A stretch of 64,000 nucleotides of DNA, from NCBI GenBank assembly GCA_014872815.1, contig WKFK01000015.1:806001-870000 (forward strand), read 5' to 3'. The DNA is from Paracoccaceae bacterium (GTDB lineage Bacteria > Pseudomonadota > Alphaproteobacteria > Rhodobacterales > Rhodobacteraceae). Positions within the stretch are counted from its first letter, which is position 1. The number at the start of each line of letters is the position of its first letter. The notes under the pieces were generated by a model that was not told where the DNA came from, ran no database searches, and saw only the letters and a list, made by a program, of their open reading frames with translations. The position numbers were made by a program, and so were the translations under genes. Shown here in pieces: positions 3,670 to 63,570 of this stretch.

Positions 3670-3803
3670 CCGTCAAAGCTATCGCAGCCCCGGATGATAG
3701 GAAACTGCCCGCGGCTTCATTTGGCCAAAAATATCCCGGGGTGGACACCGCTCGCGGTGTCAGGGGCAGCGCCCCTTATGTTCGGTTGTTCAGGAGGCCA
3801 CTC
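3670..3803. other. Intergenic spacer between slyX and dnaE
   Basis: This 134-base spacer holds a small GC hairpin (AGGGGCAGCGCCCCT, about 3762-3776) in a loosely structured region. It separates two minus-strand genes. No promoter could be assigned by eye. Confidence 0.3.
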
Positions 3804-4096: not shown

Positions 4097-4900
4097 ATGA
4101 CTGTTTTGGTACTGACCAGAGGCCGGGTGCGCATCATCAGCATCAACCGCCCAGAGGTGCGCAATGCCGTCAATCCGGCCACAGCCGCCGCGCTGTACGA
4201 CGCTTTTTTGACCTTTGAGAGCGATGACGATGTCGATGTCGCCATTTTGACCGGCGGGCAGGCGGCATTCTGTGCCGGTTTTGATTTGAAGGCTGCGGCG
4301 GGCGATCTTGGCGCGGACTGGCAAAACGCCATCACCATCCCAGAAGGCTGGCAAGACGCACAGGCGCAGCCGATCCCCGGTCCCATGGGACCGTCCCGTT
4401 TGATGTTGTCCAAACCGGTGATTGCGGCTGTTGAGGGGCACGCCGTGGCCGGAGGGCTAGAGCTGGCGGCATGGTGCGACATGCGTATTGCGTCTAAGGA
4501 GGCGGTGTTTGGTGTGTTTTGCCGCCGATGGGGCGTTCCGTTGATCGATGGCGGCACCGTGCGCTTGCCCAAAATTCTAGGGCAGGGCCGGGCCAACGAT
4601 CTGATCCTCACAGGACGTCCGGTGTCTGGCCAGGAGGCATATCAGATCGGCCTTGTGGATCGCCTCTGTCCGGAAGGTCATGCGCTTGAAGAAGCCTTGG
4701 TTCTTGCGGAAAGTCTGACACGCTTCCCACAAGCCTGCCTGCGCGCGGATTTCCTGTCTGCGCGTTTGAGCGGCACGGAGTTGGCGCTGGCTCTAAGGCG
4801 AGAGTGGGCTTCGTTTGAGGTGTTTGCGGCCGAAGGACAGAAAGGCGCAGCGCGTTTTGCGGCGGGAAAGGGGCGGGGTGGCGGCTTTTCTGATATCTGA
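4097..4900 (+). CDS. Enoyl-CoA hydratase/isomerase (crotonase) family protein
   Basis: A 267-residue single-domain crotonase fold protein. The two oxyanion-hole regions are visible as CAGFDLK (about residue 57) and EGHAVAGGLELA (about residue 114). The usual hydratase glutamate pair is not obvious: the region GVFCRRWGVPLIDGG lacks the second canonical Glu, so the substrate and exact reaction (hydration, isomerisation or hydrolysis of an acyl-CoA) are open. The start is supported by GGGAGG seven bases upstream. The downstream gene is a 2,4-dienoyl-CoA reductase, which suggests a shared role in fatty-acid breakdown, although the 238-base gap contains a repeat element and may separate the transcripts. 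Confidence 0.85.
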   Translation: MTVLVLTRGRVRIISINRPEVRNAVNPATAAALYDAFLTFESDDDVDVAILTGGQAAFCAGFDLKAAAGDLGADWQNAITIPEGWQDAQAQPIPGPMGPSRLMLSKPVIAAVEGHAVAGGLELAAWCDMRIASKEAVFGVFCRRWGVPLIDGGTVRLPKILGQGRANDLILTGRPVSGQEAYQIGLVDRLCPEGHALEEALVLAESLTRFPQACLRADFLSARLSGTELALALRREWASFEVFAAEGQKGAARFAAGKGRGGGFSDI

Positions 4901-4956
4901 CGGGTGCCGCAACAGCTGCGTGCCTTGTGGTTGGAAATGGACACGACACAAACACC

Positions 4957-7166
<2,210 letters not shown>

Positions 7167-15538: not shown

Positions 15539-16038
15539 ATGGAAACCTTCGTTCTTGTTGAGCGAACACAATAGCCGTTCCAACAATATACTACGAAGAG
15601 CATTTTGCTCAAAAATGTTGTGCTTGGTCAGAGTACCCCCAAGCGCGAAACTGCGGTCGATAGGCCGTCGCGCATCAACGACGCGCCCCCACGCGGCGGC
15701 GATTGGGTGAGGTTTGCGCGCCCTCGATAGGGCCTACTGACGTGGCCGGGATAAACTGGCAGGCTCGAACCTTCGGATCGCCACCACGCGCGTCGTTGAT
15801 GCGCGGCTTGGGGGTGGCTGTTGGCTCAGGCCAAGAAAAACAAGCGCTCCACTTGCCACCCCGTCCCATCCAAGTTATATCGCGCGGGTCGTGTGGCCTC
15901 AGATTCGTTCTGGGGCTGCTCGCCTTTTGAACCGGGGACCTTCGGGGCCCTAAAAACTTGGCCACCTTCGGGGGGCTTTAACATCGCCGGGTCTGACCAA
16001 ATTCCACAGACCGGGCTGCTATACGGAAGACAGAAAGC
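15539..16038. other. 500-base non-coding region upstream of rplB with a long inverted repeat
   Basis: No convincing gene is seen. An open frame on the minus strand (15675-15965) has no ribosome binding site and no recognisable domain. The region holds the inverted repeat at 15670-15804 and two CCTTCGGGG-type repeats near 15940-15975, just before rplB. The promoter of the rplB block must lie here or just upstream. Confidence 0.5.
15670..15804. repeat. Long-armed inverted repeat upstream of rplB
   Basis: A 16-bp arm, GCGCATCAACGACGCG (15670-15685), is perfectly inverted at 15789-15804, with 103 bases between. Homology continues imperfectly on both sides: CGCGGCGGCGAT faces CGTGGTGGCGAT inside, and ACCCCCAAGC occurs outside both arms. 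This could be a degenerate palindromic element or the base of a folded leader RNA. Confidence 0.7.
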
Positions 16039-21294: not shown

Positions 21295-21915
21295 ATGTCG
21301 ACCATCGAATCTCTCTTTGTGACCCGCCTTTATCGCGCGCGTTTGTCTGAATTTGGAACGCCTGTGGATTCGGATGAGTTGGAAACTTCCTGTTTCAGCA
21401 TTGCTGAAGATGATGAGGCTGGGCAGGAGTGGTGCGAGGCAAACGCCTATCCTGGGTACACGTCCTATGCGTCCTTGACGGACTTGCCTTGGAGGTTTCC
21501 GATTTTCGCGGATGTAGTGGCGTCTTTGGATCAGCATGTTGCCGCATTCGCCAAGGATTTGGAGTTTGATCTGGACGGTAAGACACTGAAATTGGAAGAT
21601 TTGTGGATCAATATTTTGCCAGAGGGTGGAATGCATGCGTCCCATATTCATCCCCATTCGGTGATCAGCGGGACGACCTATGTGTCCATGCCAGACGGCG
21701 CGAGTGCCTTGAAGCTCGAAGATCCTCGCTCCGGGCGGATGATGGCGTCACCGGTGCGCAAGAAGGGTGCTCGGCGGGATTTGCAGCCTTTTATCTATAT
21801 GAAGCCAGAGGTTGGTGACGTGCTTTTGTGGGAAAGCTGGCTGCGCCATGAGGTGCCGATGAACATGGCGGAAGAAGAGCGGGTGAGCGTCAGCTTCAAC
21901 TATGTCTGGGAATAG
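21295..21915 (+). CDS. Putative 2OG-Fe(II) oxygenase (TIGR02466-like)
   Basis: 206 aa. The C-terminal half has the double-stranded beta helix pattern of 2-oxoglutarate/Fe(II) oxygenases: first iron ligands in GGMHASHIHPHS (about residue 114), the distal histidine in LRHEVPMN (about residue 185) and the 2OG-binding arginine in EERVSVSFNY. The aspartate of the usual HxD is not in the expected spacing, so activity is inferred from the family. The substrate is unknown. It is preceded by a 200-base spacer and followed by the iteron element at 21926. Confidence 0.78.
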   Translation: MSTIESLFVTRLYRARLSEFGTPVDSDELETSCFSIAEDDEAGQEWCEANAYPGYTSYASLTDLPWRFPIFADVVASLDQHVAAFAKDLEFDLDGKTLKLEDLWINILPEGGMHASHIHPHSVISGTTYVSMPDGASALKLEDPRSGRMMASPVRKKGARRDLQPFIYMKPEVGDVLLWESWLRHEVPMNMAEEERVSVSFNYVWE

Positions 21916-21925
21916 GTGTTGCGCC

Positions 21926-22013
21926 GTTAACTCTCCAAAGCCACGTCGGTATAACGTCGGTATCGTGTCTGTATTGCGGAGGTGGCAGAAATTGTCACCT
22001 CCCACTTGTTAAC
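21926..22013 (+). repeat. 11-bp iteron element, copy B
   Basis: GTTAAC (21926-21931), then ACGTCGGTATA (21943-21953), ACGTCGGTATC (21954-21964), GTGTCTGTATT (21965-21975), then GCGGAGGTGG (21976-21985). An inverted CACCTCCC follows at 21996-22003 and a second GTTAAC at 22008-22013. It is the most complete of the three copies. Confidence 0.85.
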
Positions 22014-56839: not shown

Positions 56840-57703
56840 TTAATCAGCCCGGATCATTGACCCTGCCCCGTGTTCTGTGAAGAGCTCCAGCAAGCACGCA
56901 TTGGGCGCGCGGCCGTCCAAAATAACCACAGCCCGCACGCCTTTTTCGATGGCTGCGAGGGCCGTTTCGGTCTTGGGGATCATGCCGCCGGCAATCACGC
57001 CTTTTGCGGTAAGGTCGCGAATTTGCTGGGCTTTTAGCTCTGTCAGAACTTCGCCTTCGCCATTCTTTACACCGGCCACATCGGTCAGCAGCAGCAGGCG
57101 ATCCGCTTGCAGCGCGCCGGCAATGGCGCCGGCGGCGGTGTCGCCATTGATGTTGTAGGTCTCGCCGTTGCGGCCAGCACCCAAAGGCGCGATCACCGGG
57201 ATGGTGTCGTTGGCAAACAGCTCGTGCAGAATCGCCGGGTTCATGTCGGCAGGGGTGCCGACAAATCCGAGGTCTGGGTTGGTTTGGTCACAGACGATCA
57301 GGTTGGCATCCTTGCCGGACAAGCCAACAGCCTTGCCGCCTTGACGGTTGATCGCTTGCACGATGCGCTTGTTGACCACGCCGGATAAAACCATCTCCAC
57401 CACTTCGACAGTCGCGGCGTCGGTAACACGTTTGCCATTCACAAAATCAGATTTAATTTCAAGGCGTTCCAGCATCGCATTGATCATTGGACCACCGCCA
57501 TGCACGATGACCGGGTTGATGCCCACTTGGCGCATCAGAACCACGTCACGGGCAAAATCATCCATGGCTTCGTCACTGCCCATGGCGTGACCGCCAAGCT
57601 TAATAACCACAGTCGCACCGGTGTAGCGCTGCAGATAGGGCAGGGCTTGAGACAGGGTGCGGGCGGTGGCGATCCAATCGCGGTTCATATCTTGTGTCTT
57701 CAT
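56840..57703 (-). CDS. argB: N-acetylglutamate kinase
   Basis: 287 aa, second enzyme of arginine synthesis. N-terminal helix [20 protein letters not shown], then [40 protein letters not shown] and [15 protein letters not shown], the amino-acid kinase fold motifs. The extended N-terminal helix suggests an arginine-regulated hexameric form. In many related genomes argB lies near rpmH-rnpA-yidC-engB; here it lies near rnpA without yidC. Confidence 0.97.
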
Positions 57704-57801: not shown

Positions 57802-57873
57802 ATTAACCCGATTTGGAACATCTGTATTGCGTCTGTATTACGTCGGTATTGCGGAGGTGGGCCTTTCGTTAAC
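57802..57873 (+). repeat. 11-bp iteron element, copy C
   Basis: ATTAACCC (57802-57809), then ACATCTGTATT (57818-57828), GCGTCTGTATT (57829-57839), ACGTCGGTATT (57840-57850), GCGGAGGTGG (57851-57860) and GTTAAC (57868-57873). It lies between the 5' end of argB and the 3' end of the ABM protein gene, both minus strand. Confidence 0.85.
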
Positions 57874-57882
57874 GCGGAAGTC

Positions 57883-58203
57883 TTAACGTGCGTGCACGGA
57901 AGGCACCGCTGAGGGCATAAAGTGCGGCGTGAGTTCTTTGATCACCAAATCGGTGACCCCATCCTCAAATAGATCTTGAAAGTCATGTAGCGCGTCACTG
58001 TTCAGAAAATGCTGCCAGTCGCGGCGGCTCTCCCAACGGTGAAAGAGAATGAACTGCCCCGGATCGCCCGTGCCTGTGTGAACGTCAAACCGCAGGCAGT
58101 TTTGTTCGTTGAGAACCCTTTGGGCGAGGCGCAACAATCCCGCGCGCACTTCGGCGCGGTTGGGGGAGTCGAGATAAAAGGACGCCATAATTGTGACGGT
58201 CAT
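57883..58203 (-). CDS. ABM-fold (antibiotic biosynthesis monooxygenase-like) protein 1
   Basis: 106 aa ferredoxin-like alpha/beta fold. TVTIMASFYLDSPNRAEV, RFDVHTGTGDPGQFILFHRW, and LNSDALHDFQDLFEDGVTD are typical of the ABM family. Members are monooxygenases or ligand/heme binders, so no reaction is assigned. It shares C-terminal sequence ELTPHFMPS with a hidden frame of the neighbouring paralog. Confidence 0.85.
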   Translation of the reverse strand: MTVTIMASFYLDSPNRAEVRAGLLRLAQRVLNEQNCLRFDVHTGTGDPGQFILFHRWESRRDWQHFLNSDALHDFQDLFEDGVTDLVIKELTPHFMPSAVPSVHAR

Positions 58204-63493: not shown

Positions 63494-63570
63494 GCTCTGG
63501 TAGCTCAGCTGGATAGAGTACTTGACTACGAATCAAGGGGTCGGGGGTTCGAATCCTCCCCAGAGCGCCA
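63494..63570 (+). tRNA. tRNA-Arg (anticodon ACG)
   Basis: A full 77-nt cloverleaf: acceptor GCTCTGG pairs with CCAGAGC, D arm GCTC/GAGT, anticodon stem CTTGA/TCAAG with loop CTACGAA (anticodon ACG at 63528-63530), T arm with TTCGAAT, discriminator G and encoded CCA. The 3' end is followed by a tyrosine recombinase fragment on the other strand, so it is the likely integration site. Confidence 0.95.

Follow-up and report, generated by a model that had tools for sequence, protein, structure and literature searches.

Sequence signals that give direction to bacterial chromosomes are known either as short and dense motifs (KOPS, Chi, AIMS) or as sites confined to the origin or terminus (parS, matS, Ter). 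KOPS is of the former kind, a short 8-bp motif, dense and oriented from origin to terminus. The sites of Noc and SlmA occur in tens of copies over the chromosome and are palindromic and non-polar, while in parC of the ParMRC plasmids (ParR) arrays of 11-bp direct repeats wrap the DNA. Strong gyrase sites (phage Mu SGS) and the gyrase motif of E. coli are long, lie outside genes and have G+C/A+T phasing of about 11 bp on both sides, the E. coli motif comprising a 36-bp centre and two 47-bp arms with a GC periodicity of 10.75 bp that extends over 130 bp (PMC6379681); in gyrases of three species the GC periodicity is 10–11 bp (PMC12324340). BldC-type operators contain a variable number of direct repeats, AATTXXXX(C), which are located in promoters and to which a winged-helix protein binds head to tail, distorting the DNA (PMC5859096).

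The repeat described here was found in a window of 64,000 nucleotides (G000:C3:806001-870000) of a 3.96-Mb assembly in 16 contigs, from a marine bacterium, probably of the genus Shimia (Rhodobacteraceae), and it resembles several of these systems in part. It is long, phased on both sides and outside genes like the gyrase sites, although the gyrase motif is degenerate and symmetric whereas the Shimia core is a specific 44-bp element of four units that recurs about 90 times at even spacing and is oriented with replication. Its origin-to-terminus orientation is that of KOPS, AIMS and other replichore-oriented octamers, but AIMS and KOPS are 8 bp and dense and the Shimia sites are 44 bp and about 45 kb apart; the KOPS sequence GGGNAGGG is separately present, 38 versus 11 times in 68 loci. 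Noc and SlmA sites are palindromic and the Shimia sites head-to-tail and polar, and parC is one plasmid locus as against about 90 chromosomal places. The units are 11 bp and lie outside promoters, unlike the BldC repeats. REP and BIME-2 elements are likewise intergenic and repeated, and are gyrase-linked, but REP is palindromic and the Shimia core has neither an inverted-repeat body nor covarying pairs. OmpR/PhoB operators share the tandem 11-bp half-sites but are placed at promoters, which the Shimia sites are not. We found no published description of the site in open-licence PMC papers, and a literature search with the unit CGTCGGTAT gave, among the matches listed, seemingly chance matches in primers and other sequences.

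The repeat unit and its copies

In the preliminary description the copy designated B was read as three 11-bp units followed by GCGGAGGTGG. The array is real, but GCGGAGGTGG is itself the fourth 11-bp unit (Table 1), so that the core consists of four units head to tail and the site has a direction. Copies A, on the minus strand, and C lie where they had been placed. Searching with two units plus GCGGAGGTGG and allowing up to 3 mismatches, we see exactly three matches in the window and none in 100 dinucleotide shuffles. The count of three is however an effect of the window: a pattern search finds 68 copies in the genome (32 forward, 36 reverse; none with the reversed control pattern), and a sequence-only profile built from 55 aligned sites finds 96 matches at E≤1, of which 90 reach E≤1e-4, these including two identical contig ends (C3:3 and C7:3). 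The preliminary description would have been refuted by a lack of further copies in the genome or its relatives and by as many triplets in shuffled sequence, and neither is what we see. Contigs C3 and C7 start with the same weak site match (G000:C3:3-46 and G000:C7:3-46), which suggests an assembly break in the repeat there.

Across the 68 copies conservation is limited to about 44 bp, with free positions between the units and A/T-rich positions just outside. The 44 columns hold 72 bits, an upper figure because the copies were chosen by a pattern, as against about 16 bits needed for marking 90 places. Elsewhere the fourth unit reads GCGTCGGTG, and the usual form of the site in other genera is (CGTCGGTAT NN)x3 CGTCGGTG. 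Unit number varies when judged by eye, with five units in L041, L081 and L139 and three in G014 at hemE.

Other features noted around copy B are of unequal generality. GTTAAC, described as present at both ends, is so in copy B, whereas copy A has it only upstream and copy C has ATTAAC upstream and GTTAAC downstream. The inverted CACCTCC likewise exists in copy B but occurs only 3 times in the 100-bp flanks of the 68 sites, which discounts a fixed GCGGAGGTGG hairpin as a general feature. An RNA element was rejected, as none of 12 predicted pairs shows a double change and the strands are equally represented relative to genes (19 versus 19), and so was a Shine-Dalgarno reading of GGAGGTG, the same unit being GTCGGTG in other genera. 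A scan of the window at the Rfam gathering thresholds finds only a tRNA and an L2 leader.

Table 1. Positions in the 64,000-nucleotide window of the three copies, their parts and neighbours, and of two structured RNAs
Feature	Position	Strand	Remarks
Copy A core, four units	4956..4999	-	GTTAAC at 5011-5016; profile match G000:C3:810955-811003
Copy A neighbour, enoyl-CoA hydratase/isomerase family protein	4097..4900	+	Pfam PF00378
Copy A neighbour, FMN oxidoreductase family protein	5052..7166	+	Pfam PF00724
Copy B core, four head-to-tail 11-bp units	21943..21986	+	Pattern match and profile match G000:C3:827939-827985
Copy B unit 1, ACGTCGGTATA	21943-21953	+	
Copy B unit 2, ACGTCGGTATC	21954-21964	+	
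Copy B unit 3, GTGTCTGTATT	21965-21975	+	
Copy B unit 4	21976-21986	+	GCGGAGGTGG = 21976-21985
GTTAAC upstream of copy B	21926..21931	.	TTAA starts 17 bases before first CGTC, in 11-bp register with core; positional peak -17/-18
GTTAAC downstream of copy B	22008..22013	.	GTTAAC enrichment near sites
CACCTCCC, inverted partner of unit 4 in copy B	21996..22003	+	Not general to the family
Copy B upstream neighbour, putative 2OG-Fe(II) oxygenase	21295..21915	+	Pfam PF13759
Copy B downstream neighbour, 313 aa	22092..23033	+	No Pfam match at E≤1e-4
Copy C core, four units	57818..57861	+	TTAA 57803-57806, GTTAAC 57868-57873; profile match G000:C3:863814-863861
Copy C neighbour, amino acid kinase family protein	56840..57703	-	Pfam PF00696
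Copy C neighbour, antibiotic biosynthesis monooxygenase (ABM) domain protein	57883..58203	-	Pfam PF03992
L2-Alphaproteobacteria ribosomal protein leader (Rfam RF03142)	15960-16036	+	Above gathering score; ordinary
tRNA-Arg (acg)	63494-63570	+	By ARAGORN and Rfam; ordinary

Flanks, placement and direction of the sites

GTTAAC is 12-fold enriched near the sites, with 36 occurrences in the 13.4 kb of flanks of the 68 sites versus 35 in 161 kb of other intergenic DNA. The inner TTAA is most frequent at -17/-18, -28/-29 and -39/-40, with further peaks downstream, being present between -45 and -15 in 40 of 68 sites and between +5 and +45 in 37 of 68 (32 and 18 of 66, respectively, in other genera). 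A+T content varies with a period of 11.5 bp upstream and 11.0 bp downstream of the core; within 70 bp none of 500 circular-shift nulls is phased as strongly, and the excess persists weakly out to 140 bp. A+T and TTAA carry the 11-bp phase of the core onwards for many turns on either side. At 95 sites of other genomes, many of them related, the phasing is the same upstream and weaker downstream (periodic power 0.32 and 0.033, compared with 0.52 and 0.12 in this genome). There is a phase jump of about half a turn at unit 4.

With phased A+T and TTAA on both sides, the DNA of the site seems suited to lying wrapped on a protein surface, as at gyrase sites. The published cleavage-core preferences of gyrase (PMC12324340) fit best of all offsets at +39.5, scoring 3.76 of 6 (mean 1.57) here and 3.35 of 6 in the 95 other sites, a fit that rests on one consensus. 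The mirror centre of the A+T arms is best placed at 37.0 in this genome (r 0.50) with 47.0 as good (0.49), and at 1.0 in other genomes, and so does not point to +39.5 in particular. The words GTTGCG and GCGCAAC are also 3- to 7-fold enriched near the sites, mostly 30–60 bp downstream (flanks of L001-L068).

The sites lie between genes. As judged with a home-made gene caller, 26 of the 68 copies are between convergent genes, 19 + 19 between co-directional genes of each sense, 3 between divergent genes and 1 within a weak predicted ORF; on contigs C3 and C16 (1.6 Mb), which are 89% coding, none of 33 copies is within a gene. Of the intergenic regions of at least 60 bp on these two contigs, 12 of 97 between convergent genes, 18 of 475 between co-directional genes and 3 of 211 between divergent genes carry a site (convergent versus divergent, p 1e-4), and site orientation is independent of gene direction (19 >M> versus 19 <M<). 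This distribution speaks against the regulon operator offered in the preliminary description.

Spacing is more even than expected by chance. In four Shimia genomes the coefficient of variation of the gaps is 0.54 (this genome), 0.63, 0.68 and 0.64, versus 1.01, 0.96, 0.93 and 0.96 in the nulls, as calculated from 87 of 90, 80 of 80, 78 of 81 and 72 of 74 sites, with three single-site contigs of G000 set aside and with the sets for G010 and G016 comprising at least the matches listed. The mean gap is about 42–60 kb in Shimia genomes and about 45 kb in this one. Gaps on the terminus side measure 85, 168 and 87 kb as against means of 42, 52 and 49 kb, but these genomes also have gaps of that size or more in other places, and in G000 and G018 the terminus gap is not the largest. 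A replication iteron, also suggested earlier, does not agree with about 90 places across the chromosome, no cluster at the origin and no plasmid match.

The direction of the sites follows replication from origin to terminus. Local GC skew, calculated with the site excluded, is positive along the site direction in 64 of 68 loci (mean +0.103, t 13, binomial p 6e-15), and it spans tens of kb around the sites with no local bump. On the 30-kb scale 26 of 33 sites agree with the sign of the skew, the other 7 being mostly where the skew is near zero. Neighbouring sites point the same way in 50 of 76, 55 of 76, 42 of 68 and 47 of 64 cases in the four Shimia genomes (P 0.003, 0.0003, 0.03 and 0.0001 versus shuffles), and in G094, a single contig from another genus, 18 of 23 weak matches fit the skew (p 0.011).

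Near the terminus side the orientation switches from + to - in G000, G018 and G010. On C16 of this genome the + orientation holds up to 308 kb and the - orientation from 393 kb on, with the sign change of the skew at about 340 kb; in G018 the switch falls between 930 and 1097 kb of C2, where the skew also changes sign, and in G010, from site orientation alone, between 532 and 619 kb of C1. The best PF00486 match of each genome falls in the switch gap (C16:334645 in G000, C2:1013473 in G018 and C1:556628 in G010). The origin side is marked by two parS-like palindromes (G000:C3:276240 and 278145) beside a gidA-like gene. A search for dif gave two matches at up to 3 mismatches, and for that reason a dif match near the skew switch is only suggestive.

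These observations bear on two further points of the preliminary description. Its protein-binding array with the units on one helix face is supported, and so is its nucleoid or partition site, by the genome-wide spread, the regular spacing, the polarity and the phased flanks.

Occurrence among relatives and the search for a reader

The site is patchy in its presence. In 22 of 25 Shimia genomes there are 55–99 matches at E≤0.05, and G005, G009 and G013 have one each. Across the family, matches at E≤0.001 occur in 21 of 248 genomes, and 11 of these have at least 11 matches, among the matches listed; in the class outside the family there is 1 weak match among 289 genomes, again among the matches listed. 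At the 3' end of hemE, readable in 22 of the 25 genomes, a site is present in 15, degraded in some, and absent in 7 including G005, G009 and G013; G005 and G013 have an ordinary hairpin-plus-T terminator there instead. The site adjoins lpd in several genera. In G139, which has a single profile match in the family scan and was read because a lone site might mark the gene of its reader, it lies between genes for E2 and dihydrolipoamide dehydrogenase, as named by reading of the translation (L322, G139:C1:143500-151500, near locus base 3800), and L112, L123 and L154 have it at seemingly the same start of a gene.

Where places correspond between genomes, the direction is kept. Of 43 locus pairs, 39 were listed and 36 of these have the same direction; the 3 of opposite direction have their sites at a different place. 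Among 29 same-place pairs picked by the analyst, core identity, which leans high because the search pattern fixed units 1 and 2, is 0.91 with flanks at 0.70/0.63 for Shimia and one near relative (n=21), and 0.82 with flanks at 0.27/0.16 for other genera or a viral-collection contig (n=8).

Units 3 and 4 differ systematically between lineages. At position 5 of unit 3, T prevails here (62 of 68 copies), as against G in the chosen non-Shimia sites (33 of 35). Unit 4 has G at position 3 and A at position 4 in this genome (61 and 59 of 68 copies), where all 35 of those sites have T and C. These columns had been unconstrained when other genera were scanned; the 68 copies were found with a pattern holding GCGGAGGTGG, and a pattern free at these columns adds only 10 (78 in all). 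About 90 places cannot change alike by chance, and so either a common reader imposes the change or the sequence is copied between places, the latter being disfavoured because the flanks have diverged. As orthologous places are kept across genera while units 3 and 4 changed together, it is likely that something in trans reads the site.

A search with a 52-base consensus finds nothing in collections of plasmids (72,556 records) and phages (50,697 records), although the same query, with masking on, finds 157 of the analysed loci at that database size. One viral-collection contig carries the site beside a stretch 81% identical to the host locus L056, and is therefore probably host DNA. The miniature mobile element of the preliminary description is thus poorly compatible with what we see, since beyond the core nothing is conserved except A+T phasing, the same places and direction recur in other genera, and plasmids and phages give no match.

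In our search for a reader, which covered about 1.8 Mb (45%) of this genome, no multi-repeat DNA-binding candidate appears among the best 45–60 rows ranked by internal repeats, either in 1807 predicted proteins (C16 1-800 kb, the window, the 68 loci and 40 windows of G018 and G094) or in 719 proteins of C3 1-800 kb. Counts of OmpR-type PF00486 domains are alike in genomes with sites (9, 9 and 10) and without (9, 7 and 8), and FtsK is single and equal in both. The GyrA of this genome is complete.

Possible roles of the sites

The repeat is real, genome-wide, under selection, intergenic, evenly spaced, polar and phased. As about 90 even, mostly replication-oriented sites lie in wrap-prone DNA, they probably represent an undescribed chromosome-organising element, and we lean, by a little, towards polar, wrapped chromosome-architecture sites, about 90 in number and including this repeat, with gyrase as the leading but unproven wrapping partner. 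In this model, a sequence-reading protein would fill the units head to tail and the DNA would wrap into a curved nucleoprotein particle; such one-way particles every 40–60 kb would be regular topological or segregation markers of the chromosome. The head-to-tail reader, the wrapped particle and the topological role are what we infer from the data, and DNA gyrase as the most likely wrapping partner, whether it reads the units itself or is recruited there, is a guess. Some observations count against an architectural role: no candidate reader appeared among the proteins searched, from about 45% of the genome, 7 of 33 sites are off the skew sign at the 30-kb scale, the agreement in G094 (18 of 23) is with weak matches, the terminus gap is not the largest (G000, G018), and the A+T mirror centre is not unique here and lies elsewhere in other genomes. 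Against the gyrase step it counts that gyrase is universal and the site patchy, and that the E. coli gyrase motif is much less specific than the core.

It is also conceivable, although we think it unlikely, that the site itself is a lineage-specific strong gyrase site, the GyrA C-terminal wheel wrapping the phased arm with the gate segment near unit 4 and without another reader. The phased arms on both sides, the half-turn phase jump at unit 4 and the best cleavage-core score at +39.5 would suit such a site, as would its place between transcription units; the site by lpd has a parallel in the BIME-2 gyrase sites that E. coli has between sucB and sucC. However, the offset test is weak because it comes down to one conserved sequence, the mirror test fails in other genomes, published gyrase motifs are degenerate compared with 72 bits in 68 selected copies here, and bacteria without the site also have gyrase. 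We consider it improbable that the sites bind a Noc- or SlmA-like protein for nucleoid occlusion or membrane tethering: copy number and spread are similar and the terminus-side gaps are wider than the means, but Noc and SlmA sites are directionless palindromes whereas direction is conserved here, and other parts of these genomes have gaps of that size.

Polarity and very long specific sites also bring to mind distributed polar replication-fork barriers, a chromosome-wide Tus-Ter-like set that would let normal forks pass; as the sites are spread over whole arms and not at the terminus, we give this little credence. Less credible again are operators of a large regulon under a response regulator of the OmpR/PhoB kind, since for all the likeness of 11-bp head-to-tail units with a GTC core and adjacent A+T to PhoB half-sites, convergent ends are preferred, divergent promoters avoided and orientation to genes lacking, and PF00486 counts do not separate genomes with sites from those without. 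The least likely account, which we hardly entertain, is that of a mobile or REP-like repeat, dispersed but functionless in itself. High copy number and patchy presence would fit, but there is no longer conserved body and conservation stops at the core; the same place and direction in other genera, the regular spacing, the genome-wide change in units 3 and 4, and the lack of matches in plasmids and phages, where the positive control worked, all point the other way.

Returning to chromosome-architecture sites, a more far-reaching form of the proposal, to which we give somewhat less than an even chance, is that they form a new class of element: one-way DNA-wrapping way-markers every 40–60 kb with a lineage-specific head-to-tail reader, whose specificity evolves unit by unit with about 90 sites following, and which may act as oriented boundary or loading sites for supercoiling, extrusion or segregation machinery. 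The on/off pattern within one genus (22 genomes with sites, 3 without) means that the reader protein can be found directly by comparing gene content. The concerted change in units 3 and 4 would then be a natural experiment in the co-evolution of a DNA-binding protein with about 90 sites and, if the proposal is true, a large, specific, even, replication-oriented and wrapped site that stays in the same places from genus to genus would provide a handle on the division of the chromosome into topological domains.
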